A DNA stretch of 56,659 nucleotides from assembly GCA_902785355.1 (NCBI GenBank), contig CACZYF010000014.1, positions 1-56,659 of the forward strand, written 5' to 3'. Every line of letters starts with the position of its first letter. Within the stretch, counting starts at the first letter, position 1. The stretch comes from an uncultured Ruminococcus sp. GTDB lineage: Bacteria > Bacillota > Clostridia > Oscillospirales > Acutalibacteraceae. This document shows, in pieces, positions 25,583 through 46,818 of this stretch. A program made the translations under genes and the position numbers. Under the pieces are notes generated by a model, which saw only the letters and a program-made list of their open reading frames with translations, made no database searches and had not been told where the DNA came from.

Positions 25583-27502
25583 ATGTATAAAACCGAACTT
25601 GTTTTGATCAAGCGGGACGCTGCTGCAGATTCGGAGCTTACCGCGAATCAATCTGCAATCTCCGATATCCTGTATCAGCATGCCGCAGAGCTTAACAGCA
25701 CGAGCACGCTCAGCCCCGCGCCGAAGAAGATTACCGACTATGTTATCAAGCGGATCGGCGGCGGTGATACGGAGCTGTTCGTCTTTATGAACGCGCTGGA
25801 TCAATCCGGTGCCGAGGGATTCCGCAAGCTGTTCTACGACCTGATCGGCACACTGGAAAAGAGTGTCAGGATCGATAAGGAGCATAAAAATCTGCGCCCT
25901 GTCGTCAAGGTAAGCTCCCTCGGCGAACTCGGAGGCGGCTGTAAAGGTTACTGCTTCTCGTTCGGCGGAAGACGCTTTGTCGCTCTGCCTCAGGTATCGA
26001 TGGCCGGTAAGGCTTATGAGAGTTTGACCGATGAGGCGCTTCAAAAAGCCGACGAGATATTCGAAAGACAGAGAGAGCGATATCCCGAGGGCATTGCCTT
26101 CGTTGATAAAAAGGGAGTTGAGGCTGACCCTGAGCTGAACCGCGTGTCTCCCGAACTCCTCATGCTCTCTTCCAAGCAGGGCTTTATCCAATCCTTTATT
26201 CCGCAGAAGAGCGATACCTCTAAGCAGAAGGCGCGTAAAATCGCCGTTCTGCTCGCAATCGTCGCCTTTATCGGCGCGGGGATTTATGTGCTGAACTTCT
26301 ATGTTTTCGCACCCATGCGCAACAATGCCATTACAAGCGAAATCCAGGAGATCGCTTACAGCGGCGAGAGCAAGGGCGACGGAAAGAAGGACGGCTCCGC
26401 TCAGGATTGGAAGGCGCTGAAAAAGATCAACGAGGAGATCGTCGGCTGGATCACGATTCCCGATACGGTGATCGACTATCCCGTGCTGGAGCATAAGGGC
26501 GACGACCGCTACAACCAGTACTATCTGGAGCGCTCCTATAAGAAGGACGGTACCGAATACGGCAGTATCTTCCTCGATTACCGCTCCACCGACAGCGTAA
26601 AGTCACGCAACGTGATCATGCACGGTCATAATATGCGTGACGGCAGTCAGTTCCATTCCTTGCTCAATTATTCGCATGAAGGCTCGTTGAAAGCGGATCT
26701 TGATTACTACCGAGACCATCCCGTTATCACCTTCAACACCCCGGACGGCGACGCAAAGTACAAGATCATCTCGATCTTCAAAACTTCGACCCGTTATGAG
26801 GACGGCGAGTTTTTTAATTATATGCAGGGCGAGTTCAACTCCGACGCGGAGTTTATGAACTTTGTTTATCATACGCGAATTCGTTCTATGGTCAATACTC
26901 CCGTCACCTGTAACGAGGGCGATCAGATCATTACGCTTTCCACCTGCTGTTACGAGTTCTATCAGTGGCGATGCGTCGTTGTGGCGCGTAAGGTGCGTCC
27001 GGGAGAGGATCCGGGAGTTGACGTCAAGCTCGCGGAGCTCAACGATTCTCCACTGTTCCCCGAGTCGTACTACGAACGCTACGGCGGAACCCGACCCGAT
27101 CCGGGAACCTTTAAGTCCGCTAACGGTAAAGGTAAGATCGGCTGGTATGACGGCAAGGGCAACCTGGAGGGCAGTGAGGTCCTGACGGCGACTGCAGCCT
27201 CGAACCCCACTGAGCCACCCACCGAGAAGCCGAAGCCCGGTGAGACCATCCCGACCGAGCCGCCGGTGGTCACCTATTATCCCGTGACCTTCCGCAACTT
27301 CGACGGTACCCAGTACGCTGCCTATAACGTCAAGGAGGGCGATCCGCTGCCCATCCCGGACGGCGTGCCAAAGCTGCCGTCGGATGATTATTACAACTAC
27401 ACCTTCAAGGGATGGAACCTCGATATCCCGGGCGTAGATATCAATGCGCTGAATGTCGGATTGGATATCTACCCGAAGGTAGAGTCGACGCCAAAGGAAT
27501 AA
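25583..27502 (+). CDS. Multi-domain class B sortase
   Basis: The 639-residue protein has a cytosolic N-terminal domain (about 1-210), one membrane helix (about 217-238) and an outer class B sortase domain (about 270-480) with the catalytic set His 349 (HGHNM), Cys 455 (LSTCCYEF) and Arg 463. A Pro/Thr-rich spacer follows, then a C-terminal InlB-type repeat (about 570-630, VTFRNFDGT ... FKGWNLD). Sortase B enzymes attach or cross-link surface proteins. The N-terminal domain has a late GYCFSFGGRRFVALPQ segment faintly like the CinA/MoaB fold, and the next gene has a similar segment. AGAGGG precedes the start. Confidence 0.9.
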   Translation: MYKTELVLIKRDAAADSELTANQSAISDILYQHAAELNSTSTLSPAPKKITDYVIKRIGGGDTELFVFMNALDQSGAEGFRKLFYDLIGTLEKSVRIDKEHKNLRPVVKVSSLGELGGGCKGYCFSFGGRRFVALPQVSMAGKAYESLTDEALQKADEIFERQRERYPEGIAFVDKKGVEADPELNRVSPELLMLSSKQGFIQSFIPQKSDTSKQKARKIAVLLAIVAFIGAGIYVLNFYVFAPMRNNAITSEIQEIAYSGESKGDGKKDGSAQDWKALKKINEEIVGWITIPDTVIDYPVLEHKGDDRYNQYYLERSYKKDGTEYGSIFLDYRSTDSVKSRNVIMHGHNMRDGSQFHSLLNYSHEGSLKADLDYYRDHPVITFNTPDGDAKYKIISIFKTSTRYEDGEFFNYMQGEFNSDAEFMNFVYHTRIRSMVNTPVTCNEGDQIITLSTCCYEFYQWRCVVVARKVRPGEDPGVDVKLAELNDSPLFPESYYERYGGTRPDPGTFKSANGKGKIGWYDGKGNLEGSEVLTATAASNPTEPPTEKPKPGETIPTEPPVVTYYPVTFRNFDGTQYAAYNVKEGDPLPIPDGVPKLPSDDYYNYTFKGWNLDIPGVDINALNVGLDIYPKVESTPKE

Positions 27503-27992: not shown

Positions 27993-28799
27993 TCAAATGA
28001 TATTAAAGTGCCTCAGGGCGGCGACGATACCGTCGTGATCGCAGTCTGCGGTAACATAGTCCGCGGCCTCCTTGAGCGCTTCTTCGGCGTTGTCCATCGC
28101 GACGCCCATGCCGGCTGTTTGTATCATGCGGATATCGTTGTAGCTGTCGCCGAAGGCGATCACTTCATCCGTGGTGATACCCATGTCGTTGCAGATTGCT
28201 GTGACGCCGGTGCCTTTGTCGACGCCTTTGGGCATGACCTCGAGGAACCACGGAGCGGATAGATAGATATCGACCTCGTCGCCGAGAGCTTCGATCAGCT
28301 TTTGTTCAAGCTCCCTGAGCTCTGCGGGATCGCCCGCTAAGAGATACTTGTGTATCTGCCAGTCGATGAAGTTCGGCAGATCGTCGACCACGTTCAACGG
28401 AAGTCCGATGACGTCGCTCTCGATATGAGTATAATCGTTGACCTTGTTGTCGGCGTAGATAGTACTGCCCTTATGCACCATGGCGGTGACGTTGGTGGGG
28501 CGGAGAATGTCGTAGACAGGCTTGATGTAGCGGCTGTCCAGATAGCTTTTGCCGATCAACTCATCGCGGGCGTTCATGATCGCCCCGCCGTTGAAGCCCA
28601 TGTAATAACCCCCGTAGCGAAAGACCTCCAGCTTCTCGGCGTACGGACGAACGCCGTAGGGCAGTCGGCCCGACGCGACAGCGACTGTCATGCCGTTTTT
28701 CTGCGCCTGTATCAGGGCGGAGCGGGTGACGGGGGAGAGCTGTTTTTTCTTATTGAGCAGGGTGTCGTCGATATCCAGTGCGATCAGCTTATATGTCAT
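27993..28799 (-). CDS. Cof-type HAD-IIB hydrolase
   Basis: The 268-residue cytosolic phosphatase has HAD motif I ALDIDDTLL with nucleophile Asp 8, motif II VASGR, and motif IV AFGDSYNDIRM. The cap between about 85 and 190 is of the Cof (C2B) type, which usually acts on sugar phosphates or cofactor phosphates. The start at 28799 has CGAGG upstream; a start 10 codons earlier has no site. Confidence 0.9.
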   Translation of the reverse strand: MTYKLIALDIDDTLLNKKKQLSPVTRSALIQAQKNGMTVAVASGRLPYGVRPYAEKLEVFRYGGYYMGFNGGAIMNARDELIGKSYLDSRYIKPVYDILRPTNVTAMVHKGSTIYADNKVNDYTHIESDVIGLPLNVVDDLPNFIDWQIHKYLLAGDPAELRELEQKLIEALGDEVDIYLSAPWFLEVMPKGVDKGTGVTAICNDMGITTDEVIAFGDSYNDIRMIQTAGMGVAMDNAEEALKEAADYVTADCDHDGIVAALRHFNII

Positions 28800-29129
28800 A
28801 ATATACCTCGGTTGTGCTTTATCTGACACAGTTTATCACAAAAGCAGTTGTTTGGCAAGTGTGAGAATCGTATTTTAAGGGCTTTCGATGAATTGTTATT
28901 CACTTTCTGCACGAATATAGCGAAAAACAGAAAAGTCAGCCGAATCATGATAAAAACAGTTGAAATTATTACATTTTATGATATAATATAAAATGTATTA
29001 TTATGGAGTAATGTGGATAAATATATTCTGAATCGGTTAAGCTGATATATGATTGTCCCGATGACTTTTCAGCTCTGTCAATCTGTTGATTCGGAAAAGA
29101 CCGCAGTATTTTGAAAGGATGTGTTATCT
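28800..29129 (+). promoter_or_regulatory. Intergenic region and leader of the dlt-like operon
   Basis: A promoter at 28960-28987 (TTGAAA, 16 bases, TATAAT) drives a leader of about 135 nt. The leader has weak pairing potential (AATCGG with CCCGAT; AAGCTG with CAGCTC) but no riboswitch motif I recognise. The 28800-28960 part is AT-rich and shows nothing further. Confidence 0.55.
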
Positions 29130-30635
29130 ATGCAGACATCCGTTTTGGAACGGCTTGACTATGTCGCAAAGTCCTATGCTGATAAGGTGATGTTCAAGGA
29201 TCCCGAGAACAGTCTGACCTTCCGTCAGTTCGATGAGCTCACCCGGTCGATCGGCACTTATCTTGCCGGTCTTGTGAAGCCCGGCGACCCTGTCGCGGTA
29301 ATGTCCGGACGTCATGTTTACACCCCCGCGTGCTTTCTCGGCGCGGTCAGGGCGGGATGCTTCTATGCCCCGATGGACGGCGATATGCCCAAGGCGAGGC
29401 TCAATCAGATCCTCTCCGTCATCAAGGCGCCCTATATGCTGGTCGATCAGGCGCATCTGGAAGCGGCGCAGTCCCTCGACTTCGACGGCGAGATCATCGT
29501 GATGGAACAGATCATGCAGACCCCCGCGGATGAAGCACTGTTGGCTCAACGTGCGGCGACCTTAGTTAATACCGCGCCGCTGTATGTGATCTTCACCTCC
29601 GGTTCGACCGGTAAGCCCAAGGGCGTTATCACCTCACACCTGAGCCTGATGACCTATATCGACAGCGTGAGCAAGGTGCTCGATATCAACGATACCGATA
29701 TCATGGGTAATCAGAGCCCGCTGGATTATATCGCGGCGGTTCGCGATATCTACTTCCCGATCAGCAAGGGCGCGTCGACCTTTATCATCCCGAAGAATGA
29801 ATTCGCCGTGCCGACGGCGCTGTTCAATACGCTTAATCGTGAGAAGATCACTGCGTTGTGCTGGAGCGTAGCGGGCGTTGAGCTGCCCGCAAAGCTGGGC
29901 GCTTTTGACGAAGGTAAGCCCGAGTATCTGAAGAAGCTGTGTTTCTCCGGCTCCGTCATGCCCTGTAAGTACCTGAAGATCTGGCAGGAGAACCTGCCCG
30001 ACGTGCTGTATGTCAACCAGTACGGTCCCACCGAGGCGACCGCCTCCTGCACCTACTATGTGGTAGGGGAGAAGGTCAGCGACGATACCGTGCTCCCTAT
30101 CGGCAAGCCGTATGATAACTACCGTATCACTCTGCTCAACGATGATAACACCGCGACTAAGCCCGGCGAGATCGGTCAGATCTGCGTCAGCGGTCCTGTT
30201 CTTGCACTCGGCTATTACGGCAATCCCGAGGTGACTGCGGCGTCCTTTATCCAGAATCCGCTGAACGGGAATTATCGCGAGCTGCTGTACAAAACCGGCG
30301 ACCTCGGCAGATGGGGCGAGGACGGAAACCTGTATTTTCACGGTCGTATGGATCGCCAGATCAAGCACCTTGGTCATCGTATCGAGCTCGGTGAGATCGA
30401 AGAGACCGCCCGCAAGGTGGACGGCGTGAAGGATTGCTGTTCCCTGTATCATAAGGAGAAGGCGACCCTCTACCTCTTCTACACCGGCGAGGCGACAAGC
30501 AAGGAGATCGTGCTGTATTTCAGAGCGAACATGCCCGCCTTCATGGTACCGCGTAAGCTCATCAACCTTGAGGCGCTGCCCGCTCTGCCCAACGGCAAGA
30601 CCGATATGCAGGCGCTTAAGGCGATGTTTAAATAA
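29130..30635 (+). CDS. DltA-like amino acid adenylating ligase
   Basis: The 501-residue protein is a stand-alone adenylation enzyme of DltA size. Core motifs are present: FTSGSTGKPKGV (A3), NQYGPTEAT (A5), YKTGDLGRW (A7), HRIELGEIE (A8) and the catalytic Lys in LPNGKTD near the C-terminus. It should activate an amino acid with ATP and load it on the carrier protein encoded next. The substrate is not certain: the operon contains a decarboxylase, which canonical D-alanine systems lack. Start 29130 is supported by GAAAGGAT ten bases upstream; a GTG nine bases earlier abuts it. Confidence 0.9.
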   Translation: MQTSVLERLDYVAKSYADKVMFKDPENSLTFRQFDELTRSIGTYLAGLVKPGDPVAVMSGRHVYTPACFLGAVRAGCFYAPMDGDMPKARLNQILSVIKAPYMLVDQAHLEAAQSLDFDGEIIVMEQIMQTPADEALLAQRAATLVNTAPLYVIFTSGSTGKPKGVITSHLSLMTYIDSVSKVLDINDTDIMGNQSPLDYIAAVRDIYFPISKGASTFIIPKNEFAVPTALFNTLNREKITALCWSVAGVELPAKLGAFDEGKPEYLKKLCFSGSVMPCKYLKIWQENLPDVLYVNQYGPTEATASCTYYVVGEKVSDDTVLPIGKPYDNYRITLLNDDNTATKPGEIGQICVSGPVLALGYYGNPEVTAASFIQNPLNGNYRELLYKTGDLGRWGEDGNLYFHGRMDRQIKHLGHRIELGEIEETARKVDGVKDCCSLYHKEKATLYLFYTGEATSKEIVLYFRANMPAFMVPRKLINLEALPALPNGKTDMQALKAMFK

Positions 30636-30748
30636 TCGATAACGCGCATTGCGGCTTCATTGTCGTTGCGTGAACGGGAGGACATAATCCTCCCTCATAA
30701 ACAAACCCTAATAAACAAATCAATTATTCAGAAAAAGGAGATTTAATC
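30636..30748 (+). other. Intercistronic hairpin region
   Basis: GGGAGGA (30676-30682) and TCCTCCC (30688-30694) form a 7-bp hairpin between the ligase and carrier genes. It has no T-tract, so it may set transcript stability rather than end transcription. Confidence 0.45.
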
Positions 30749-30976
30749 ATGGATGAATTAATGGAAATCTTAGAAGAACTCAGACCTGATGTTGACTTTG
30801 AGAACGAGACCGCGCTGATCACGGACGGTATCCTCGATTCCTTTGATATCGTTGCGCTCGTCGGCGAGCTGAACGACGCTTTCGATATCGAGATCAAGCC
30901 GAACAACCTGGTTCCCGAGAACTTCAACTCCGCCAAGGCAATGATGGCGCTGATCGAGCAGCTCCAGGACGAGTGA
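30749..30976 (+). CDS. DltC-like carrier protein
   Basis: The 75-residue acidic protein is an acyl carrier protein. The phosphopantetheine Ser lies in DGILDSFDIVALV (about residue 31), the normal place. It should hold the activated amino acid as a thioester for the later enzymes of the operon. A strong AAAAGGAGA site suggests high translation. It sits between the ligase and the decarboxylase. Confidence 0.93.
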   Translation: MDELMEILEELRPDVDFENETALITDGILDSFDIVALVGELNDAFDIEIKPNNLVPENFNSAKAMMALIEQLQDE

Positions 30977-31002
30977 TCGAATAACTGTCATTACAATGAT
31001 CC

Positions 31003-31026
31003 GGGCTCCCTCGTCACAGGGAGCCC
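31003..31026 (+). other. Stem-loop between carrier and decarboxylase genes
   Basis: GGGCTCCCT and AGGGAGCCC form a perfect 9-bp stem with a 6-nt loop and no T-tract. It may be a processing or stability element giving more carrier protein than decarboxylase. Confidence 0.55.
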
Positions 31027-31043
31027 GAGTAAGGACTGATAGC

Positions 31044-32231
31044 ATGGATATCAATAAACTAAGGGAGCTTCTGCCCGCGGTAGGAACCCCCTCTTATATA
31101 TTTGATCTCGACGAATTTGAAAAGCGTGCTTTGCTGGTTAAAAAATACTTCGGCGATACAGTCGGTATGTGCTTTTCCATCAAGGCGAACCCTTTTCTGC
31201 TCGGTAGGATGCCCGCTTGCTTTGATAAGATCGAGGTGTGCTCGCCCGGTGAGCTGACGGTATGCGAAAGAACCGGCGCCGATATGAGCACGGTCATCTT
31301 CTCCGGCGTCAACAAGGGCTTTGCCGACGTTGAACGTGCCGCCGATGATAACGTCGGAACCTTTACCGCTGAGAGCCCGCTGCATTTGAAACTGGTCAGC
31401 GACGCCGGCGTTCGCCGGGGCAAGGTCTTCCCGCTTCTGCTCCGTGTGACCGACATCAAGGGCGGCAGCCAGTTTGGTATGAGCGAGGAGACTGTTTTTG
31501 ACCTCATCCGTCGCCGTGACGAGTATCAGGGCGTAGAGATCGTCGGTCTGCATTACTTCACCGGTACGGCGAAGCGAAAAGCGAAGCCGATCGAGAAGGA
31601 GTGCGACTACCTGATCGACCTGACAGCACGCATCAAGGCGGAGCTCGGCTTTACCGTACAGCGTATCGAGTACGGCACGGGGCTTGCGGTCGATTACTTC
31701 TCCGATAATGCTGATGCGGAGGAGGAGGAACGTCTCGCGTCCGTCGCGCCGAAGCTGAAGGAGCTTGCTGAGGTCGCCGAGCTGACTGTCGAGATGGGTC
31801 GCTTCTTCGCGGCTCCCTGCGGTTATTATCTCACCAAGGTTGTCGATGCAAAAACCAACTTCGACATCAATTACGCGATCGTCGACGGCGGTATGAACCA
31901 GCTTAAGTATAACGGTCAGTTGCAGGGTATGCAGATTCCCGAGATCCTCCATCTCAAGGACAGCGAGCCTGAGGGCGAGGAGCAGCCGTGGACGCTGTGC
32001 GGCTCGATCTGTACGACCGCTGACGTTCTGGCGAGGAACGCCGTGTTCACCGATCTTGAGATCGGCGACGTGCTGGTATTCTGCCGCACGGGCGCTTATT
32101 CGTGTATGGAGGGCATCTCGACCTTCCTCAGCCGCGAGCTGCCCGTTATCGCCGAGTATAGTGAGAAGGAAGGACTGCGTATCCTCAGAAGTATGCTGTT
32201 CTCCGATAAGCTGAACACTCCCCGCAGATAA
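31044..32231 (+). CDS. PLP-dependent fold III decarboxylase, BtrK-like
   Basis: The 395-residue enzyme belongs to the DAP/ornithine decarboxylase fold: an alanine-racemase-like barrel with the PLP lysine in SIKANP (Lys 47) and a C-terminal beta domain. The active-site Cys motif reads CGSICTTAD (Cys 319, Cys 323). LysA normally has CES-D here, and free-diamine decarboxylases have another pattern. As I recall, a Thr after the Cys is typical of decarboxylases acting on carrier-bound amino acids, such as BtrK or the exosortase-linked set. Position after a ligase and carrier supports that. AAGGA precedes the start at 31044. Confidence 0.88.
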   Translation: MDINKLRELLPAVGTPSYIFDLDEFEKRALLVKKYFGDTVGMCFSIKANPFLLGRMPACFDKIEVCSPGELTVCERTGADMSTVIFSGVNKGFADVERAADDNVGTFTAESPLHLKLVSDAGVRRGKVFPLLLRVTDIKGGSQFGMSEETVFDLIRRRDEYQGVEIVGLHYFTGTAKRKAKPIEKECDYLIDLTARIKAELGFTVQRIEYGTGLAVDYFSDNADAEEEERLASVAPKLKELAEVAELTVEMGRFFAAPCGYYLTKVVDAKTNFDINYAIVDGGMNQLKYNGQLQGMQIPEILHLKDSEPEGEEQPWTLCGSICTTADVLARNAVFTDLEIGDVLVFCRTGAYSCMEGISTFLSRELPVIAEYSEKEGLRILRSMLFSDKLNTPRR

Positions 32232-32273
32232 TCACAATTGAAAAAACTCAAATAAATCCGAATTAGGTTCATT

Positions 32274-33908
32274 ATGACATATACATCCATTAACTTTTTA
32301 TTCTTTGTGCTTGCGACAGCGCTGATTTACTTCATCTTACCGTGGAAGAAATACCGCTGGACGGTTCTGCTTGCTGCCAGCGTGATTTTTTACAGCCTGG
32401 CAAGCTATAAGTATGCCGTCTTCATCGTATTTACCGCTATGTCTACCATGGGTATCGGCATCTGGCTCGAAAAGGTGAACGAAAACGGCAAGGCTTTCTT
32501 GAAGTCAAAGAAGGGCGAATGGGATCGCGAGCAGAAGAAAGACTATAAAAATAAGCTAAAGATCAAAAAGCGCTGGATCATGGCGTTGTGTCTGATCTTA
32601 AACTTCGGTATCCTCGCTTTTTTGAAGTATTATAACTTCTTCGCGGGTTCGTTGAACGATATCTTAGGTTCGTTCGGCGCAACCTTTTCAGCGCCGACAC
32701 TGGAGCTCTTTCTGCCGCTGGGTATCTCGTTTTACACCTTCCAGAGCATGGGGTATATCGTGGATGTCTACCGCGAAAAAACCAAGGCGCAGCGTAATCC
32801 GTTCAAGTTTCTGCTGTTCGTCTCCTTCTTCCCGCAGATCATCCAGGGACCGATCAGCAACTATGAGCAGCTTGCTCATCAGCTTTTTGACGGTCATGAC
32901 TTTGACTATACGCGCTTCAAACACGGCTGTCAGCTGATCCTGTGGGGCTTCTTCAAGAAGCTCGTCATCGCCGACAGGGCGGTTATCGCAATCAATACCG
33001 TGACTGCTACTGCGGATGGTTATAACAAGTATTCCGGCACGACGCTGACCTTTATCATCCTTTTGTATGCCTTCCAGCTGTACGCCGACTTCTCGGGCGG
33101 TATCGATATCTCCCGCGGTGTGGCGCAGATGCTTGGTATCGATATGATCGACAACTTCAAGCGCCCGTATTTCTCAAAGTCTATCAACGAGTATTGGCGC
33201 CGCTGGCATATCTCGCTGGGCGCATGGATGAAGGACTATATCTTCAATCCGCTGGCAATCTCGTCCGCGTTCCTCAACGCGAGCAAGAAGATGCGCGGCA
33301 CCCGCTTCGGCAAAACCAAGGCAGGCGCTCATATCGCAAAGGTTCTGCCTACAGCGTTTGCTTCACTGATCGTCTTTTTGGTGGTCGGTATCTGGCACGG
33401 AGCTAACTATAAGTACGTTGCGTTCGGTCTGTGGAACGGTGTGATCATCATGCTGTCAACCCTGATGCAGCCGCTGTTCGACGGTGCTGTCGACAAGCTC
33501 CATATCAACCGCAAGAATTGGCTGTTCTGCTTCTTCCAGATGTTCCGTACCTTTATCATCGTACTGGTCGGCTATGTTTTTGACGTAGCGCCGTCCTTTG
33601 AACAGGGTATGATGACCATCACCCGATTCTTCAATAACCAGGATCTTATGCGCGCCAAGACCGAGATCTTTGATAAACTCGGACTTTCGTGGAAAGACTA
33701 TCTCCTGTTGGGCGTATGCCTGTTCGTGGTGTTGATCATCAGTATTATCCAGGAACGTCATACTGATACGGATATACGCCATCTGCTGGATAAAAAGCCG
33801 TTTGTGCTCCGCTTTGTCCTCTATTTCCTCTGTATCATGGCGGTGATCATCTTCGGTATTTACGGCTCCGGTTACGCGGCGGCTGACTTTGTATATATGC
33901 AGTTCTGA
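32274..33908 (+). CDS. MBOAT family acyltransferase (DltB/AlgI-like)
   Basis: The 544-residue polytopic membrane protein has about 11 hydrophobic segments. The MBOAT catalytic His is in VVGIWHGANYKY (His 375), with SINEYWRRWHISLGAWMKDY upstream. It should take the acyl group from the carrier protein on the inside and pass it through its channel to an outer acceptor, as DltB does with D-alanine. It follows the decarboxylase by 42 bases and precedes its SGNH partner. The ribosome site is weak. Confidence 0.93.
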   Translation: MTYTSINFLFFVLATALIYFILPWKKYRWTVLLAASVIFYSLASYKYAVFIVFTAMSTMGIGIWLEKVNENGKAFLKSKKGEWDREQKKDYKNKLKIKKRWIMALCLILNFGILAFLKYYNFFAGSLNDILGSFGATFSAPTLELFLPLGISFYTFQSMGYIVDVYREKTKAQRNPFKFLLFVSFFPQIIQGPISNYEQLAHQLFDGHDFDYTRFKHGCQLILWGFFKKLVIADRAVIAINTVTATADGYNKYSGTTLTFIILLYAFQLYADFSGGIDISRGVAQMLGIDMIDNFKRPYFSKSINEYWRRWHISLGAWMKDYIFNPLAISSAFLNASKKMRGTRFGKTKAGAHIAKVLPTAFASLIVFLVVGIWHGANYKYVAFGLWNGVIIMLSTLMQPLFDGAVDKLHINRKNWLFCFFQMFRTFIIVLVGYVFDVAPSFEQGMMTITRFFNNQDLMRAKTEIFDKLGLSWKDYLLLGVCLFVVLIISIIQERHTDTDIRHLLDKKPFVLRFVLYFLCIMAVIIFGIYGSGYAAADFVYMQF

Positions 33909-33927
33909 CGGAACGAGGCATTACTCT

Positions 33928-35190
33928 ATGAAAAAGAAGAAAACCATCACGCGGGGGATCAAGCTTATCGCCTTTGCCCTCGCGGTGATATTGACAACTT
34001 ACCTCTTGCAGGTGTTTCTGCTCAAGCGCATCGACAACAACTCGCTGCGTATGGATGCGTTCTATCTGGAGGAGAAGGGTTCGCTTGATGCAGTACTGAT
34101 CGGCGCGAGCGATGTGTACGCCGGTTATTCGGCGCCCTATGCGTATGAGAAGTACGGCTACACGAGCTATCCTTACGCTACTCAGAGCGCTCCGGCGAAC
34201 ATTGTCCTACCTCAGATCAAAGAGGTCATAAAGTATCAGAATCCCAAAATGATTATCGTGGAGATCAACGCGTTCCTGTATAAGGACAGCGAGATTCCAT
34301 CCGAGGCGAGCAGCCGCATGTTCCTGGATAACATCCCCGACGATGAAATCAAGTTTGGGTATATCCAGCGTTATTTCAGCGCGGATAAACGCCCCGAGTA
34401 CTTTTTACCGATCATCAAGTATCACGGCTCATGGACGGATTATCCGTGGAAGGTGAAGTTCCTGACCGCGGAGCTCCAGCTGAAGGAGCGCGGTTACTCC
34501 CTGTTCCGCGGCTACAAAACCACAGCGAATGAGTTCCATCCCCCGGTCAAGGTCTATAACGACATGCTGGAGACACTCGATGCTACCGCTCCGATGGGCG
34601 TCAACGGCGAACGCTGTTTGAGAGAAACGCTTGAGTATCTAAAGGATAAGGATATCCGCAACGTTGTATTCATGCGTTTCCCGCATGTCGTGCGCCGTCA
34701 CGCGATCGCTCGTTGTGAGCGTACCAACGAGGCGGAGAAGATCATTAAGAGCTACGGCTACGACTTCGTTAATCTCGAGCGTTACAGCGCACGCGAGGGC
34801 TTTGATGTTAACAAGGATTTCTACAACTGGGATCATCTGAACGTCTACGGCAGCGAGAAGCTGACCGATTATATCGCGAATATGCTGCTCAACGATTACG
34901 GTATGACCAAGGCTGAGCTTACCGACGCACAGAAGGCGGAGTGGGAGGTTTCGGTTGAGTATTATCGCAAGATCTATAACTACAGCGTTGCGATGATGAA
35001 CAGTCGTAAGAAGCAGGGCAAGACCGGCGACGGCGGAATTACGATCTCGGAGGACGCCGTGAGCATCGATGAGATCAATAAGTATGCCGAGAAGCAGAAG
35101 AATAAGGATAGGAATAATACAGCGGAGGATAAGGCGCTCGATCAGCAAGCGATCCAGGATACGCCGGATGACGGCAATGTAGCTGAATAA
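33928..35190 (+). CDS. SGNH-type membrane-anchored protein (DltD/AlgJ role)
   Basis: The 420-residue protein has an N-terminal membrane anchor (about 10-32) and an outer SGNH-like domain. GASDVYAGYS places the Ser at 61, and NWDHLNVYG gives His 303 with Asp close by. Such proteins partner MBOATs and complete the transfer to teichoic acid or polysaccharide. A charged, low-complexity tail of about 70 residues follows. It is the last gene of the operon. GAGG precedes the start. Confidence 0.85.
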   Translation: MKKKKTITRGIKLIAFALAVILTTYLLQVFLLKRIDNNSLRMDAFYLEEKGSLDAVLIGASDVYAGYSAPYAYEKYGYTSYPYATQSAPANIVLPQIKEVIKYQNPKMIIVEINAFLYKDSEIPSEASSRMFLDNIPDDEIKFGYIQRYFSADKRPEYFLPIIKYHGSWTDYPWKVKFLTAELQLKERGYSLFRGYKTTANEFHPPVKVYNDMLETLDATAPMGVNGERCLRETLEYLKDKDIRNVVFMRFPHVVRRHAIARCERTNEAEKIIKSYGYDFVNLERYSAREGFDVNKDFYNWDHLNVYGSEKLTDYIANMLLNDYGMTKAELTDAQKAEWEVSVEYYRKIYNYSVAMMNSRKKQGKTGDGGITISEDAVSIDEINKYAEKQKNKDRNNTAEDKALDQQAIQDTPDDGNVAE

Positions 35191-35212
35191 ACATAACTAA
35201 ATCAATAAGATA

Positions 35213-35246
35213 AAGCCATCTGCACGGAGAATGCAGATGGCTTTTT
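35213..35246 (+). terminator. Terminator of the dlt-like operon
   Basis: AAGCCATCTGCA and TGCAGATGGCTT form a perfect stem followed by TTT. Confidence 0.85.
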
Positions 35247-35258
35247 GCATAGAAATGA

Positions 35259-35744
35259 TTATTTATTTTTGTTGAAGTCGATGGTGATCGACTCGCGTTG
35301 GAGCTGCAGCTGGGTCATACGAACGCCGGCGGCGTCGAGCATCCGCTTGGATGCGATGATCTCAGGCGTGTCGGCATATTTATCATATAGATACACGACT
35401 TCGGCGATGCCGGACTGGATGATCGCCTTGGTACACTCGTTGCAGGGGAAGAGGTCAACGTACAGTCTGGCGCCCTCGAGCGATTTGCCGTGCGCGTTAA
35501 GGATGGCGTTTAGCTCCGCGTGGACGACGTACTTGTACTTGGTGTCCTCGCCATCGCGATTCCACGGGAAGGTGTCGTCGGAACAGCCGTAGGGGAAACC
35601 GTTGTAACCGGTGCTGAGGATTCGCTTCGCCTTATTGACGATGCAGGCGCCGACCTGGGTGTTTGGATCTTTAGAGCGTTTTGCCGCCAAGAGGGCAACG
35701 CCCATAAAGTATTCGTCCCATGAGATGTGATCTTCTCGTTTCAT
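35259..35744 (-). CDS. Deoxycytidylate deaminase
   Basis: The 161-residue enzyme turns dCMP into dUMP for thymidylate synthesis. Zinc and catalytic motifs are VVHAELNAI and FPCNECTKAI. A third zinc-type residue set near SWDEYFMG and NGFPYGCSDD fits the dCMP type (ComEB-like) rather than cytidine deaminase. AAGGAGG precedes the start. It lies 43 bases after the AbrB-type gene and is probably transcribed with it. Confidence 0.93.
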   Translation of the reverse strand: MKREDHISWDEYFMGVALLAAKRSKDPNTQVGACIVNKAKRILSTGYNGFPYGCSDDTFPWNRDGEDTKYKYVVHAELNAILNAHGKSLEGARLYVDLFPCNECTKAIIQSGIAEVVYLYDKYADTPEIIASKRMLDAAGVRMTQLQLQRESITIDFNKNK

Positions 35745-39901: not shown

Positions 39902-39928
39902 TCCATGATGAGGAGGAATGGTAAACAG

Positions 39929-40414
39929 ATGAAACCGAAAGAAAAGGATTTTTGCCGTAGGCTCGCGCTATGTGCCGACCCGATACGGGCGGTGCGTGAG
40001 GCGGGCTTCAGACATCCCGAGCAGAGCTTGTGTAAGCTGATGGCACGGGAGGATATCGCCGATGAGATAAAACGTCTGAGCCGTAACATGCGCTCGGTGT
40101 ACGAGAGTATCTCGATCTGCGGACTGTATAAGTTCGCATACGGCGGTGTGGGCGACGCGCTGATGCTCCTGTACGGCGATTCCTTCACTGCCGATCAGCT
40201 CAGGGAGATGGACTTGAGCCGTGTGTCGGAGATCAAGCGCACCGATAAAGGTGTGGAGATCAAGTTTTGTGACCGCGTGAAGGCGGTCGATAAGCTCGGT
40301 GAGCTGCTCGGCGGCGGTAATGAGTCCGGAACGGCGGGCGGTCTGCTGGAAGCGATGCGGATGTCCGCGGCGGCGCTCGGCGGCAGAAGCGTGGTGGATG
40401 ACGGTGAAGTATAA
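39929..40414 (+). CDS. Phage terminase small subunit
   Basis: The 161-residue protein starts with a helix-turn-helix-like region (KPKEKDFCRRLALCADPIRAVREAG, shown in part) that recognises DNA, then a helical body with DRVKAVDKLGELLG, which links to the large subunit. It matches the Terminase_2/XtmA type. An AGGAGG site supports the start at 39929. Two upstream ATGs overlap that site. It is first in the phage-derived operon. Confidence 0.85.
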   Translation: MKPKEKDFCRRLALCADPIRAVREAGFRHPEQSLCKLMAREDIADEIKRLSRNMRSVYESISICGLYKFAYGGVGDALMLLYGDSFTADQLREMDLSRVSEIKRTDKGVEIKFCDRVKAVDKLGELLGGGNESGTAGGLLEAMRMSAAALGGRSVVDDGEV

Positions 40415-41678
40415 GCCGTTTTCCGAGAAGCAGCTTCGATCCCTCTTCTGGTGGGTCGAGGGCAGCGGTACCGAGCGCTATGACGCGATCATCTGCGACG
40501 GCGCCGTTCGCTCCGGCAAGACCTTCTCGCTGTCACTGTCCTTCGTGCTGTGGGCGATGTTCAGCTTTGACAACGCACTGCTGGGCTTTTGCGGCAAGAC
40601 AATCACGGCGCTCAGACGCAACGTGATCATGCCTCTCTTGCCTTGTCTGCAGGAGCTCGGGCTCGAAGTCAGAGAGAATATCAGCTCGAACCGCATGACG
40701 GTGCGCTGCGCGGGAAGGGAAAACACCTTTTTCTTCTTCTCGGGGAAGGACGAGGGCAGCGCGGCGCTGATCCAGGGCGTGACGCTGTCGGGCGTGATGT
40801 TCGACGAGGTGGCGCTGATGCCGCGTTCCTTTGTGGAGCAGGCGCTTGCGCGATGCTCGGTGCAGGGCTCGCGGTTCTTCTTCAACTGTAATCCCGAGTA
40901 TCCGTCCCACTGGTTCTATCGGGAGTGGATACAGAATCGACAGCGTAAGAACGCGCTGTACATCCATTTCAGAATGAGCGATAATCCGTCGCTGTCGCCT
41001 GAGATGCTTCGTCGGTATGAGGGCCTGTATTCGGGCGCGTTTTACCGCCGGTTCGTCGAGGGCGAGTGGGTGAGCGTCTCGGGCGCTGTTTATCCTTTCA
41101 TGGAGGATGGGCGTATGTTCGTATCCCCGCCGACAGAGGCGTGTGAGGAATACTGCGTGTCCTGCGATTACGGCACGGTGAATCCGACTTCGATCGGGCT
41201 GTGGGGTCGTATCGGCGAAACGTGGTACCGCCTGCGCGAGTCGTATTATGACGCGCGCAAGGAGGGGAAAAGCCGAACGGATGAGGAGCATTATAATTCC
41301 TTGGAAGAATTATGCGGTTCGATCATACCGACAGCGGTGATTGTAGACCCCTCCGCGGCGAGCTTCATCGAGGTGATCGAGCGCCACGGTCGCTACGCGG
41401 TAACGCGGGCGGATAACAATGTCATTGACGGTATCCGCAAGACCTCCCAGGCGCTTCGTAACGGCGAGGTTGTGATCTGTAATACCTGTGCCGACGCGAT
41501 ACGTGAGTTTTCTCTTTATCGCTGGGATGAGAATAAGCCCATGGATACGGTCATCAAGCGCGACGATCACGCGATGGATGACATACGCTATTTTGTCAGT
41601 TATATAAAGGCGGCGGACGACGGCTTCGGCTGTGCCTCTATACAAAGACGGACGGATAATCTGTTCAGACCGCATTGA
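40398..41678 (+). CDS. Phage terminase large subunit (PBSX type)
   Basis: The 426-residue packaging motor has an ATPase domain with Walker A GAVRSGKTFS (Lys 41) and Walker B GVMFDEVALMP, and a nuclease domain with CDYGTVNPTS, VIVDPSAASF and DDHAMDDIRY supplying acidic residues. All key residues are present, so it should be active. It overlaps the small subunit by 17 bases. Confidence 0.93.
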   Translation: MTVKYKPFSEKQLRSLFWWVEGSGTERYDAIICDGAVRSGKTFSLSLSFVLWAMFSFDNALLGFCGKTITALRRNVIMPLLPCLQELGLEVRENISSNRMTVRCAGRENTFFFFSGKDEGSAALIQGVTLSGVMFDEVALMPRSFVEQALARCSVQGSRFFFNCNPEYPSHWFYREWIQNRQRKNALYIHFRMSDNPSLSPEMLRRYEGLYSGAFYRRFVEGEWVSVSGAVYPFMEDGRMFVSPPTEACEEYCVSCDYGTVNPTSIGLWGRIGETWYRLRESYYDARKEGKSRTDEEHYNSLEELCGSIIPTAVIVDPSAASFIEVIERHGRYAVTRADNNVIDGIRKTSQALRNGEVVICNTCADAIREFSLYRWDENKPMDTVIKRDDHAMDDIRYFVSYIKAADDGFGCASIQRRTDNLFRPH

Positions 41679-41715
41679 TCGGTTTGGCGAATACGTCCAC
41701 AAACAGGAGGAAAGT

Positions 41716-42849
41716 ATGCGATTATTTCCCAAGAAAAATCCCCCCGATACCCCGCAGGTCCAGACCTGTGCGGCGTCGAGGGGCATCATCCCTCCGCTGT
41801 TTGCTGCGGATAATCCCGCTGCCGCCCGATTCTACAGGGAGCTGAGGGATCATGTGCCGATCATCGACGCGGCGATCATGAAGCTGATCCGACTTTTAGG
41901 CAGCTTTACGGTTGTTTGTAACGATGACAGAGCTCAGCGGATGATGGATGATTTTGTACGGCGTGTGCCGGTAGGTGCGGCGGGTACAGGGTTATACGGC
42001 TTTATCTGCGCGTACTTCGACCAGCTGCTGACCTACGGGACGGCGGTGGGTGAGATGGTATGCGACGACGAGGGCTGCGTCAAGGCGCTGTATCATGCGC
42101 CTGTCTCAGCCGTGGAGCTGGGCGTCGGCGAAAATCCCCTCGATCTGAAGATCGGGATTCGCGGTGCGGGACTCGTAAAGGAAGCGAAGCATCCCGAGAG
42201 GATCCTGCTGACCCTGCTGAATCCCGCGCCCGGTACGGTACACGGAACCTCGATCCTGCAGGGGCTGCCGTTCGTCAGCGAGATCCTGATGAAGATCTTC
42301 GACTGCGTGGGACAGAACTTTGAACGTGCGGGGAACGTGCGCTTCGCGGTGACCTACAATCCGCCCGCCGGCGCTTCGACGTTCAATTCCCGTCAGCGGG
42401 TCAAGGAGATCGCCGACGAGTGGAGCCGCGCCATGCGTGACAAAAAGCACGTCTGCGACTTCGTATCGGTCGGCGATGTGAGCATCCGCGCAATCGGCGC
42501 GGACAGCCAGATCCTGGACTGTGATGTGCCGGTCAGGCATATCCTCGAGCAGATCGTGTCGAAGCTCTCGGTGCCGCCGTTTCTCTTAGGTTTGTCTTGG
42601 TCGTCGACGGAACGTATGTCGACGCAGCAGGCGGATATCCTGACGTCGGAGCTCGAGTATTACCGCTCGCTCCTGACGCCGGTCATCGAGAAGATCGCGA
42701 GATCCTATCTCTATGCGCAGGGCGTTGATCCCGCCGTCAGCGTAGAGTGGAGCAATATCAGTCTGCAGGATGAAACGGAGCTTGCCGAAGCGCGCCTGAA
42801 TAATGCGCGTGCGGCACAGCTCGAACAGAGTATGGAGGTGAACGAATGA
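41716..42849 (+). CDS. Phage portal protein
   Basis: The 377-residue protein has the portal-type central part (FDQLLTYGTAVGEMV, LLNPAPGTVHGTSIL, FLLGLSWSSTERMSTQQADIL). Portals form the dodecameric ring through which DNA passes. The start at 41716 has AGGAGG right upstream. Its end overlaps the protease gene by four bases. Confidence 0.88.
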   Translation: MRLFPKKNPPDTPQVQTCAASRGIIPPLFAADNPAAARFYRELRDHVPIIDAAIMKLIRLLGSFTVVCNDDRAQRMMDDFVRRVPVGAAGTGLYGFICAYFDQLLTYGTAVGEMVCDDEGCVKALYHAPVSAVELGVGENPLDLKIGIRGAGLVKEAKHPERILLTLLNPAPGTVHGTSILQGLPFVSEILMKIFDCVGQNFERAGNVRFAVTYNPPAGASTFNSRQRVKEIADEWSRAMRDKKHVCDFVSVGDVSIRAIGADSQILDCDVPVRHILEQIVSKLSVPPFLLGLSWSSTERMSTQQADILTSELEYYRSLLTPVIEKIARSYLYAQGVDPAVSVEWSNISLQDETELAEARLNNARAAQLEQSMEVNE

Positions 42850-43796
42850 AAAACGGTCAGGTGATCAAAAGTGCCGTGGAATCGGTATCCGCCGAGGAAC
42901 TGACGCTGGTAAACGGTTATTCACGCCGTGAGCTTACGGCGGATGAGGTCTATCTCTTCTCAGTTGTATTATGCGATAACGATATCGACCGAGACTGTGA
43001 GCGGTTTACCGTGGAATCGCTGTTCGAGCTGGAGAAGCTCTTCGTCGGCAAGACGGGTATTATCGATCATGACCCGACCGCGAAGAATCAGAAGGCGAGG
43101 ATCATCTCCTGTCGCGTAGAGAGCGTGGACGGTGCTGTGACCGCGCTCGGCGATCAGCTCTTTCGTTTGACGGCGCGCGCTTATATGCGCCGCACCGAGG
43201 GCAACCGCGAGCTGATCGAGGCGATCGAGGCGGGGATCGTCAAGGAGGTTTCCGTCGGCTGCAGTATGGGGCATACGCTCTGTTCGATCTGCCGCAACGA
43301 CATGCACTCTCCGCTGTGCCCGCACCACAAGGGCAGCGAGTATGACGGCGCGCTGTGCTACGGTGAGCTGACCGACCCGCAGGACGCGTATGAATTCAGC
43401 TTTGTCGCCGTACCCGCCCAGCGGTCAGCCGGCGTGATCAAAATGATGAAGGAGAAGGATATGAACGAGATCTGTAAGGCGCTCGACTGTGAGCGCGAGG
43501 TGACTCTTTCCAAGCCCGAGGCAGATAAGCTCAAGGCGTATATCGCCGGCTTGGAGCAGGACAGCGAATGTGCCGCGGCATATCGCGAGGAGCTGACGGA
43601 CAAGCTCCGCAAGGCGCTGAGAAAGAAAGGCGTCGAACTCGACTATACCGTAGAGGAGTGTATCCTCAAAAAGCTCAGTGTCAATGAGGCGAAAGCCCTG
43701 TATCAGGCACTGGAGAAGAAGGAACAGAAGCTTATGCCGCAGCTCGGCGGCGGTCGCGCCGAGGATGTTCCCGGCAATACGGAATTCAGAATTTAA
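42846..43796 (+). CDS. Phage capsid maturation protease/scaffold-like protein
   Basis: The 316-residue protein has an N-terminal part (about 1-200) like XkdF-type prohead proteases, with GIIDHDPTAKNQKARI, EAGIVKEVSVGCSM and AYEFSFVAVPAQRSAG. Between them lies a Cys/His cluster (CSICRNDMHSPLCPHHKG) that may bind zinc. The C-terminal third is helical and charged, as in scaffolding domains. It lies before the decoration and capsid genes, the normal place for a protease-scaffold fusion. Confidence 0.75.
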   Translation: MKNGQVIKSAVESVSAEELTLVNGYSRRELTADEVYLFSVVLCDNDIDRDCERFTVESLFELEKLFVGKTGIIDHDPTAKNQKARIISCRVESVDGAVTALGDQLFRLTARAYMRRTEGNRELIEAIEAGIVKEVSVGCSMGHTLCSICRNDMHSPLCPHHKGSEYDGALCYGELTDPQDAYEFSFVAVPAQRSAGVIKMMKEKDMNEICKALDCEREVTLSKPEADKLKAYIAGLEQDSECAAAYREELTDKLRKALRKKGVELDYTVEECILKKLSVNEAKALYQALEKKEQKLMPQLGGGRAEDVPGNTEFRI

Positions 43797-43807
43797 CGGA
43801 GGTTATG

Positions 43808-44137
43808 ATGGATATTAATTTCAACGGTTTTAAGGAAAATGTGCTGACCTTTGCGTGTGATAACACCGTGGAGGAGGGCGGTCTCGTGATGATGACCTCT
43901 TCCGGTAAGGTGACAAAGGCAGCAGAGAACAGCAACTTCGTCGGCGTATGCGTGGGCGTCAGAGACGGCTATGCCGCTGTACAGCTCGAGGGCTATACCG
44001 AGGCTGCAAAGAACGGAACGATCAACGTCGGCTATAACAAGCTTACCGCAGCCGCGGAGGGCGTCAAGACAGGCTCTTCGGGCATCGAAAGACTGGTCAT
44101 CTACAGCGACGAGAGTACCGTCGGCATCATTCTGTAA
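43808..44137 (+). CDS. Small capsid-associated (decoration-like) protein
   Basis: The 109-residue beta-rich protein (MDINFNGFKENVLTF, GGLVMMTSSGKVTKA) sits right before the capsid gene, where decoration or head-stabilising proteins of the DUF2190 kind are found. Identification rests on position and composition. GGAGG five bases upstream favours the second of two adjacent ATGs. Confidence 0.6.
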   Translation: MDINFNGFKENVLTFACDNTVEEGGLVMMTSSGKVTKAAENSNFVGVCVGVRDGYAAVQLEGYTEAAKNGTINVGYNKLTAAAEGVKTGSSGIERLVIYSDESTVGIIL

Positions 44138-44155
44138 GAGGAAAGGACTGATAAT

Positions 44156-45163
44156 ATGGCAAAATATGAGAATATTACATTAGAGAAGGGCATGTACCAG
44201 AACGGTAAATCACTGACCGAGATCCTCGAAGCGATGGATCCTTCCGAGAACTATCAGGGTACATCCATGGAGGGGCTGGACGCTTTCTCCCGTCAGCTCA
44301 AGCGCTTTGATATCAAGGTCAGCGGCAAGGGCTCCGATACGATCGAGAAGTTCTTCGCGACCTCCAACTCCGCGGCGCTGTTCCCCGAGTATGTCAGCCG
44401 TGCCGTCAACGCAGGTATCGAGGAAGCGGACGTGCTGGGCGACGTTGTCGCGACTGTCACCAAGATCGACGGCATGGACTATCGCTCCATTTCCTCAGGT
44501 TTGACCGAGGACGATAAGAGCCTCAAGCGCGTTGCGGAGGGTGCGTTCATCCCCGTGACCGAGATCAAGACTAACGATAATCTCGTCAAGCTCCATAAGC
44601 GCGGCAGAATGCTGGTCAGTTCCTATGAGGCGCTTCGCTTCCAGCGCATCGACCTGTTTACCGTGACTCTGAAGCAGATCGGCGCTTATATCGCAAGAAC
44701 ACAGCTCGCTGACGCGGTCGATGTACTGATCAACGGCGACGGTAACGCCAATCCCTGCGACACGGTGACTCCCGCTGCTGCAGGTAGTCTGAGCTATGCC
44801 GACCTGATCGCCATGTGGAGCGCGCTGACTCCCTTCGGTCTGAATACCGTGCTGGCTTCCACAGCTGCGATGAGCGATCTGCTCTCGATGACCGAGATGA
44901 AGGACGCAGTCGCCGGTCTGAACTTCCAGGGTACCGGCAAGATGATCACTCCGATGGGTGCTCAGCTCATCCATACTCCCGCACTGAGCGGCAACTCTAT
45001 CATCGGTCTGGATAAGAACTGCGCGCTCGAGATGGTCGTCGCAGGCGACGTAGCGGTCGACTACGACAAGCTGATCGATCGTCAGCTGGAGCGCGCGACC
45101 ATCAGCTGTATCGCGGGCTTCGCCAAGATCTACAACGGCGCGGCAAAGAAGCTCAGTTACTAA
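44156..45163 (+). CDS. Major capsid protein (HK97-like)
   Basis: The 335-residue protein has an N-terminal helical arm, then the HK97-like core (ALFPEYVSRAVNAGIEEADVLGDVV, ISSGLTEDDKSLKRVAEGAFIPV, and the late GLDKNCALEMVVAGDV). Size and position fit the capsid subunit. A GAGGAAAGG site precedes the start. The frame is intact. Confidence 0.85.
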   Translation: MAKYENITLEKGMYQNGKSLTEILEAMDPSENYQGTSMEGLDAFSRQLKRFDIKVSGKGSDTIEKFFATSNSAALFPEYVSRAVNAGIEEADVLGDVVATVTKIDGMDYRSISSGLTEDDKSLKRVAEGAFIPVTEIKTNDNLVKLHKRGRMLVSSYEALRFQRIDLFTVTLKQIGAYIARTQLADAVDVLINGDGNANPCDTVTPAAAGSLSYADLIAMWSALTPFGLNTVLASTAAMSDLLSMTEMKDAVAGLNFQGTGKMITPMGAQLIHTPALSGNSIIGLDKNCALEMVVAGDVAVDYDKLIDRQLERATISCIAGFAKIYNGAAKKLSY

Positions 45164-45177
45164 AGGGGGCGTGACAC

Positions 45178-45543
45178 TTGAGCTTGAAAGGAGTAATCGA
45201 CCGCTTCACTCTGGTGTCGGGTCTCGAAATGAAGGATGTATCGCGCTATTTGCCGATTATCGAGGATTGCCGTCTGTACTTTGAGGAACGCCTGCATGAT
45301 GATCTCAGCGAGGCGGATCAGAGGCGTGCCGAGCACGCTTGCGCCGTTTACGCTTTTTATAAGATCAGCATGATGGGCAGTGCCGACGCGCTGAAATCGT
45401 TCCGCGTCGGCGACGTACAGATGGAGCCGGAGCCCCTCGGCGCTTATGCCGAGAGACTCTGGGCTGAGGAACGCGAGAGCATCGCGGATATCGTCGATAT
45501 CGGGAATATCGGAAGCGGGATATTCAGGAGCGTGCGCGTATGA
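45178..45543 (+). CDS. Head-tail connector protein
   Basis: The 121-residue helical protein lies where gp6/XkdH-type connectors are found, after the capsid gene. It starts at TTG 45178 with AAAGGGGG nine bases upstream. The assignment rests on position, size and the helical pattern. Confidence 0.6.
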   Translation: MSLKGVIDRFTLVSGLEMKDVSRYLPIIEDCRLYFEERLHDDLSEADQRRAEHACAVYAFYKISMMGSADALKSFRVGDVQMEPEPLGAYAERLWAEERESIADIVDIGNIGSGIFRSVRV

Positions 45544-45899
45544 GGATGACAGGTTATCTTAAAAGCGCGCTCAAAAGGTACGGTAACACTGTGCAAATCT
45601 GTTATGACGGCAGGGCAAAGGTCAGTAAGGCCTTTGTCCAGCCGCTCAGGCGGCGCCACAGGCTGTATATTAATGATCGCTATATTCCGGCAGGTTATTT
45701 CGATAATCGATATCTGCTGTATATCGGATCGCCCGATCTACCGCTTGACGACGGGATGCGTGTGACTTGTAAAAACACGGAATATACGGTTGTGACCTCG
45801 GAAATATTTACGGCACATGATGAGGATATTTATGTCTGGGCAATACTGATGCCCGAATCGACAGGTAAGGAGGATTACTATGATGACATTAACGGATAA
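45540..45899 (+). CDS. Head-closure-like protein
   Basis: The 119-residue beta-rich protein overlaps its neighbours on both sides by four and twenty bases. Position and size match head-closure proteins (XkdI-like region). It contains a run of basic residues (PLRRRHRLY) and no catalytic motif. Confidence 0.55.
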   Translation: MRMTGYLKSALKRYGNTVQICYDGRAKVSKAFVQPLRRRHRLYINDRYIPAGYFDNRYLLYIGSPDLPLDDGMRVTCKNTEYTVVTSEIFTAHDEDIYVWAILMPESTGKEDYYDDING

Positions 45900-46697: not shown

Positions 46698-46818
46698 GTA
46701 TGAAAAAATATTGCCGGCGGACGACGCGGATGATGACGATATCAGCGATCAGATGGAGCGTGACGCGCGCCGTTACGATATGGCCTACACCGAAGAAGCC
46801 GAGGTGAGACTGCGATGA
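46690..46818 (+). CDS. Very small acidic protein in the tail region
   Basis: This 42-residue frame starts MTEYEKILPADDADDDD and is strongly acidic. It overlaps the previous gene by eight bases and shares an ATGA overlap with the next, so it fits exactly into the chain of coupled genes. A GGAGA site lies upstream. It stands where the chaperone and tape measure genes should be. Confidence 0.6.
   Translation: MTEYEKILPADDADDDDISDQMERDARRYDMAYTEEAEVRLR

Follow-up and report, generated by a model that had tools for sequence, protein, structure and literature searches.

The textbook means by which Gram-positive bacteria make their surface less negatively charged is D-alanylation. In PatA, a membrane-bound O-acyltransferase (MBOAT), an FXYXXF peptide at the C-terminus provides the Tyr on which the acyl group is shuttled, and the authors of that work argue for the same Tyr shuttle in other MBOAT-SGNH pairs (PMC12148441). 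In antibiotic biosynthesis, BtrK uses an iso-glutamyl thioester and VinO uses 3-methylaspartyl-VinL; in both the BtrK and the VinN/VinL/VinO systems the thioester is formed before decarboxylation (PMC7756342, PMC11284099, PMC7857480). Here we describe a locus that appears to join these two types of chemistry. It lies in a window (the whole stretch of DNA that was analyzed) of 56,659 nucleotides (nt) from contig CACZYF010000014.1 (GCA_902785355.1) of an uncultured Ruminococcus sp., and consists of genes for an adenylating ligase, a carrier protein, a pyridoxal phosphate (PLP) decarboxylase, an MBOAT acyltransferase and an SGNH protein. The original prediction had named these five same-strand genes, and all of them were confirmed on the plus strand. 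According to our analysis, the five genes form a real, conserved set in this gut-type bacterium, which probably acylates the envelope in a Dlt-like manner, with an acyl group that is produced on the carrier from a dicarboxylic amino acid.

Conservation Across Related Genomes

The Pfam and NCBIfam models place the ligase, the carrier, the decarboxylase and the MBOAT, and the SGNH protein has no Pfam match. The original prediction had proposed a genome search for the five-gene order and had named a decarboxylase not conserved in the operon as the outcome that would speak against it; across related genomes the search showed the opposite. The decarboxylase was found at E 1e-30 or better in 25 of 300 family genomes, the own genome counted. 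In the other 24 the ligase always adjoins the decarboxylase, and the carrier and the MBOAT are present in 22; both remaining loci are cut by contig ends. These 24 loci, combined with 80 from a contig scan (the best 80 of at least 546 confirmed relatives), gave 104 loci and, with the window, 105 decarboxylases. The latter form 96 groups at 95% identity, so that a few of the loci are near-copies. By record title, the 80 scanned loci belong to rumen or gut Ruminococcus, Lachnospiraceae (Butyrivibrio, Pseudobutyrivibrio, Roseburia), Mogibacterium and one Treponema.

Ligase, carrier and decarboxylase occur together in 95 of the 104 loci; seven of the nine loci without the full trio are cut by contig ends, and two (L105, L146) are uncut. 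An MBOAT lies within 7 kb in 85 of the 104. Behind 80 of 88 MBOATs there is a same-strand open reading frame (ORF) of at least 150 amino acids (aa), and all 80 of these ORFs are SGNH relatives. Seven of the remaining eight MBOATs stand at contig ends, and in the eighth case (L089) an SGNH-like gene, recognized by eye, precedes the ligase. Since the five-gene arrangement recurs across genomes, a chance neighborhood was rejected as an explanation. At the class level, 20 of 391 genomes (the own genome counted) passed E 1e-60 for the decarboxylase; 14 remain once six genomes with BtrK-like proteins, all from a single genus (g167), are set aside. Two variants were recorded as side observations: three loci (L041, L043, L045) have two MBOAT-SGNH pairs behind a single ligase and decarboxylase, and at L135 (record Treponema sp. 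CETP13, a spirochaete) the trio adjoins genes that by eye are of the sugar-nucleotide type.

At five loci without an MBOAT the neighbors were scanned, revealing AT3 acyltransferases (L127, L141), a hexapeptide acyltransferase (L117, L121) and sugar-transfer ATP-grasp proteins (L113). As the trio can stand beside such different genes, it looks like a portable donor module. The same neighbors lend some weight to an explanation in which the on-carrier chemistry is unchanged and a small molecule, a lipid or a sugar precursor receives the acyl group. For the window locus we find this very unlikely, because an MBOAT with an FXYXXF shuttle stands there beside a DltD-like SGNH protein, and pairs of this type acylate envelope polymers.

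Affinities of the Decarboxylase

The decarboxylase gene (31044–32231, plus strand; start set by relatives, with the longest ORF from 30996) encodes a protein of the diaminopimelate decarboxylase/BtrK fold. By sequence, the PLP lysine, the catalytic Cys and the active-site Tyr of that fold are all present; the landmarks are Lys47 (KANPF), EMGR, Cys323-Thr and GAY352, numbered from the Met at 31044. The PLP lysine is found in 103 of the 105 decarboxylases (window counted), the other two being without their N-terminal part. The closest match in the PDB is BtrK (phmmer with the single sequence, 1.5e-26, 96.9 bits), and a profile of 16 sequences likewise ranked BtrK first (188 bits), before 6knh (170 bits) and 2p3e (163.5 bits). 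The protein 6knh, annotated as a "probable diaminopimelate decarboxylase," also has Thr after the Cys.

The top NCBIfam match of the protein is lysA (TIGR01048; 171 bits, below the cut-off of 297.9). This match speaks for another explanation, in which the operon serves D-alanylation or plain aminoacylation and the decarboxylase, as a paralogue of LysA, provides lysine or uses free diamino acids; that the genome's separate LysA-like gene also falls below the cut-off (262 bits) points the same way. However, the motifs that hold the substrate in LysA, with their Glu and Arg, are gone from the window decarboxylase and kept in the separate gene, which has Cys-Glu and Arg-Pro, lies outside the set and has no ligase among its neighbors. 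The Cys motif of the window protein is CGSICTTAD, and the claim that it lacks the Glu of LysA proved correct for its relatives as well: among the 103 readable sequences of 105, the residue after the catalytic Cys is Thr in 97, Ser in six and Glu in none. BtrK has Thr at this position, and the two diaminopimelate decarboxylases compared have Glu. The Arg-Pro motif of diaminopimelate decarboxylases was found in none of the 103 readable sequences (101 read by pattern, two by eye), and its position holds Tyr or Phe in 100 of the 101 read by pattern. Owing to the lost motifs and the separate LysA-like gene, the assignment of the decarboxylase as a LysA paralogue was rejected.

The decarboxylase was also placed on a family tree with BtrK and LysA. 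All 24 sampled family rows formed one group (100/100), apart from the diaminopimelate decarboxylases and on a branch separate from BtrK, in a tree that has one BtrK row, contains neither VinO nor 6knh, and places its LysA row on a long branch. This placement is consistent with a BtrK-like function, though not proof of it. BtrK-like decarboxylases of g167 were recorded at L161–L166, L172 and L173; the last of these loci also has a distant relative of the ligase, some 5 kb from the decarboxylase and amid other genes.

A Basic Ligase Pocket and Its Decarboxylase-Free Relatives

The ligase, a stand-alone A domain, is encoded at 29130–30635 (plus strand) from an ATG start, with an upstream GTG alternative at 29121. 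It matched the adenylation model TIGR01733 with 322.5 bits (cut-off 317.4). Its score against the DltA model TIGR01734 was 241.6 bits, far below the cut-off of 559.85, and the best score of the genome for this model (268.2 bits) belongs to another locus. Three DltA-like reference ligases also score below that cut-off (526–549 bits), and three solved DltAs were added to the comparison. The best structural matches of the predicted ligase model are A domains of nonribosomal peptide synthetases (NRPS), with DltA at rank 14.

The pocket residues, given in PheA numbering at positions placed by sequence motifs and not by superposition, are Ile235, Arg239 and Ser301 in the window ligase, as opposed to Asp235, Met239 and Cys301 in the three solved DltAs. 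A Cys at position 301 selects D-Ala; the ligases of the set have Ser there (Val in the L117 type). Position 239 is Arg or Lys in 97 of the 97 readable sequences among 99 decarboxylase-linked ligases, Met in the three solved DltAs, and Met, Ala or Ser in the three DltA-like references. Two types of ligase can be distinguished. Type A, to which the window ligase belongs, combines Ile235, Ala236 and Arg239 with the gene order ligase-carrier-decarboxylase. In type B the residues are Asp235, Val or Ala at 236, and Lys239, and the genes follow the order ligase-decarboxylase(-carrier). The position of the amine-binding Asp of VinN (Asp230) is occupied by Ile in the window and type A ligases and by Asp in type B, VinN itself being unaligned; the roles of the VinN pocket residues follow PMC7756342. 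Judging from these residues, the positive charge at 239 would suit a substrate that has a second carboxylate.

The carrier protein (30749–30976, plus strand; 75 aa) has the phosphopantetheine site ILDSFD and matched PF00550 with 21.2 bits (cut-off 20.8). Its match to the DltC model, at 34.5 bits, is below the cut-off of 68. The carrier motif was matched in 90 of 99 cases, and the other nine keep the Ser with different neighbors, as judged by eye.

These results also bear on D-alanylation or plain aminoacylation as the role of the operon. The DltA- and DltC-like models do match, both below cut-off. Nevertheless, the DltA score, the Ser in place of the DltA Cys and a basic pocket that is ill-suited to Lys or D-Ala, together with the motif losses of the decarboxylase, make this role highly improbable in our estimation. 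The ligase was rejected as a canonical DltA on the grounds of its sub-cut-off score and its non-DltA pocket.

Relatives of the ligase (profile search, E 1e-120) were detected in 53 of 300 family genomes at 56 places, of which 25 are in the decarboxylase set and 31 outside it. None of the 31 sister loci, some of them on short contigs, has a decarboxylase within 7 kb on the same strand. In 24 the order is ligase-carrier-MBOAT-SGNH, one more has a second SGNH gene, and six are of other or incomplete composition. These sister cassettes place the set within a larger Dlt-like family in which the decarboxylase is optional. Position 239 is non-basic in 22 of the 31 sister ligases, none of which has a decarboxylase beside it, and basic in nine; where the decarboxylase is present, a basic residue is never absent. 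In the ligase tree the basic residue has a single origin (97/96 support), and the decarboxylase is found inside the basic-residue clade only (32 of 41 rows sampled). As the label for decarboxylase presence requires three changes on this tree, the independent events are few, and the correlation between the basic residue and the decarboxylase is suggestive and no more. The ligase code S-M-x-Y-W, with an Asp near position 330 and without Asp235, is shared by 19 of these 31 sister loci (numbered between L213 and L236). The cassettes of these ligases (ligase-carrier-MBOAT-SGNH) possibly serve another surface acyl group.

Predicted Transfer of the Acyl Group: MBOAT and SGNH Protein

The MBOAT (32274–33908, plus strand) is DltB/AlgI/PatA-like according to the family models and contains the WHG histidine. 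It scored 142 bits against the DltB model (cut-off 375). WHG is present in 84 of 88 MBOATs of the set, the other four being cut by contig ends. The window protein ends in FVYMQF (33888–33905, plus strand), a hexapeptide that fits the FXYXXF acyl-shuttle motif as given in PMC12148441. All 83 complete MBOATs of the set have a C-terminus of the form ..Y..F, in some cases starting with Pro instead of Phe. Two other MBOATs of the genome end in FIYFRF, and no ligase was found within the 9 kb read around each.

The last gene of the set (33928–35190, plus strand; longest ORF from 33889) encodes a membrane-anchored, DltD-like SGNH protein, assigned by its predicted structure. In the AlphaFold2 model (mean predicted local distance difference test score, pLDDT, of 91.2), Foldseek found DltD as the best match (E 7e-4, template modeling score, TM-score, 0.32), followed by thioesterase I and other SGNH enzymes. 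The SGNH fold family of the protein is clear; how close it stands to DltD is left unclear by a TM-score of only 0.32. Ser61 and His303 are invariant in 24 aligned SGNH sequences. When the SGNH blocks were searched for with a regular expression, only 59 of 81 sequences had both; either the motif varies among the proteins or the expression is too strict.

Proposed Pathway

Based on these results, we propose the following route. The ligase would activate the side-chain carboxyl of a dicarboxylic amino acid, most likely Asp or Glu, and load it on the 75-residue carrier, with the alpha-amine and the alpha-carboxylate staying free. The BtrK-like PLP enzyme would then strip the alpha-carboxylate on the carrier and leave an omega-amino acyl thioester. 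A PLP decarboxylase of this kind needs a free amine and an alpha-carboxylate. On a carrier, its substrate must therefore be attached by the side-chain carboxyl, which agrees with the basic residue of the pocket. The product would be a beta-alanyl group from Asp or a gamma-aminobutyryl (GABA) group from Glu. A GABA group held as a thioester or an ester can cyclize to a lactam, and because the set includes no protecting enzyme, beta-alanyl is favored. The MBOAT would move the acyl group to the Tyr of its own FVYMQF terminus at the outer face, and the DltD-like SGNH protein would pass it as an ester to an outer polymer. The original prediction of a Dlt-like set with a BtrK-like on-carrier decarboxylase and MBOAT transfer thus agrees with the BtrK kinship, the conservation and the non-DltA ligase, while its example of a GABA-like group is not favored; the gain of positive surface charge that it expected is likewise only a prediction. 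We consider this on-carrier route fairly probable.

Several observations weigh against it. Besides the motif-based placement of the pocket positions, the lead of BtrK among single-sequence PDB matches is only about 2 bits over the diaminopimelate decarboxylase 3n2b (94.8 vs 96.9), and in the unrooted decarboxylase tree BtrK joins the g167 proteins, with the window family as a branch of its own and the diaminopimelate decarboxylases as a third. Lys239 also occurs in NRPS codes for ordinary alpha-Glu activation. The Asp at the amine site of VinN and the solved DltAs is replaced by Ile in the window ligase, so that its substrate could be quite different, and as type A has no Asp235, Glu or another acid may be used. 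The nine basic ligases among the 31 decarboxylase-free ones mean that a basic residue alone does not imply decarboxylation, and position 239 was accordingly rejected as an exclusive mark of decarboxylase-linked ligases. Two of the sister loci (L209, L210) have no decarboxylase nearby and yet carry a code found among the decarboxylase-linked type B ligases; perhaps these cassettes transfer an undecarboxylated acyl group. The MBOAT is absent in 19 of the 104 decarboxylase loci, part of which are cut by contig ends. Finally, a search at E 0.001 that was positive in Bacillus subtilis and Lactococcus lactis gave no sulfatase-type (LtaS-like) protein for this genome, and the usual acceptor, lipoteichoic acid, is therefore not evident. 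Given this result and two genomic matches to the CDP-glycerol glycerophosphotransferase family, the better guess is an acceptor of the wall-teichoic type or some other polysaccharide.

A further objection concerns the order of the reactions. The PLP decarboxylase IdnL3 acts on free beta-glutamate before loading, as described in PMC11284099. The decarboxylase of the window could likewise act first on a free amino acid, with the ligase then loading the omega-amino acid on the carrier for transfer by the MBOAT (as IdnL3, then IdnL1, in incednine), and gene order alone does not fix the reaction order. We regard this sequence of events as unlikely, since the basic residue at 239 in all 97 readable ligases suits a substrate still having its second carboxylate, and since BtrK, the closest solved relative, works on a carrier-bound substrate.

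If on-carrier decarboxylation is indeed the route, it would constitute a parallel way of decorating the surface with amines and a new surface chemistry of gut and rumen bacteria, joining antibiotic-type carrier chemistry to MBOAT-SGNH envelope acylation and bearing on cationic-peptide tolerance and host recognition. A broader picture is more speculative, and we hold it only tentatively: as a widespread and so far unreported type of envelope decoration, Clostridia of the gut and the rumen, and at least one Treponema, might put beta-alanyl or GABA esters on surface polymers by a portable module plugged into MBOAT-SGNH pairs, AT3 or hexapeptide acyltransferases, with sister cassettes installing other groups and a single gene switching the charge. 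The differing pocket codes of the sister cassettes point to a wider range of as yet undescribed acyl groups at the surface, which might be readable from the ligase codes once one of them has been solved.

Operon Boundaries and Other Features of the Window

The genes on both sides of the set (27993–28829 and 35259–35744) are on the minus strand; as both neighbors point the opposite way, the five-gene set is a stand-alone unit. One promoter and one terminator had been predicted for it. The promoter-like site (28960–28987, plus strand; TTGAAA-16 nt-TATAAT) matches 11 of 12 consensus positions, the best of the region, and TG precedes its second hexamer. Such matches are about twofold enriched in the region (16 vs a mean of 6.9 in shuffles), and for this reason the site is graded a likely promoter only. 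The hairpin between the convergent genes (35212–35244) is strong, with 13 pairs and a minimum free energy of −20 kcal/mol (z −4.35; none of 200 shuffles equalled it; plus strand folded). A plus-strand terminator was not listed: the consensus scan calls a terminator here on the minus strand only, and in the plus-strand direction the T-run shares bases with the end of the stem. Taken together, these features indicate that the hairpin is probably a two-way terminator serving both convergent genes.

Elsewhere in the window, the region 39905–49986 is a prophage or part of one, with genes for the terminase small and large subunits, a portal, a major head protein and a baseplate, beside a gerA-like gene. 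At 25583–27502 there is a protein with a central sortase domain and long extensions on both sides.

Comparison With Known Systems

In the literature searched, which comprised open-licence papers only, the five-gene combination was not found. The Dlt system (DltA, DltC, DltB/DltX, DltD) has in common with the window set a ligase, a stand-alone carrier, a Tyr-shuttle MBOAT and an SGNH protein. The window set differs by its extra decarboxylase, by a ligase below the DltA cut-off with Ile, Arg and Ser where DltA has Asp, Met and Cys, and by a shuttle motif that is fused to the MBOAT, whereas DltX is separate. In the BtrI/BtrK system of butirosin, BtrK is the closest solved relative of the decarboxylase, and both proteins have a GTQ motif and a Thr directly following the catalytic Cys. 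In contrast to the window family, BtrK feeds an antibiotic and not the cell surface, and it stands on a separate branch of the tree. The butirosin carrier is loaded by another type of enzyme, the ATP-grasp protein BtrJ.

The VinN/VinL/VinO and FlvN-type loading of beta-amino acids in macrolactam biosynthesis (PMC11284099, PMC7756342) resembles the window set in its ligase, stand-alone carrier and PLP decarboxylase acting after loading. Unlike VinN, the window ligase is without the amine-binding Asp, and the output goes to an MBOAT and an SGNH protein, not to a polyketide synthase. The exosortase-linked pair TIGR03098/TIGR03099 consists of the same two enzyme types, and both models match, although at 178.3 and 158.8 bits against cut-offs of 592.35 and 478.45. 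The PatA/PatB and AlgI-type MBOAT-SGNH pairs share the C-terminal FXYXXF fused to the MBOAT and the SGNH partner; however, PatA takes acetyl-CoA, whereas the acyl group of the window set would come through a ligase and a carrier. Each part of the set has a known relative, and it is their combination that seems to be new.

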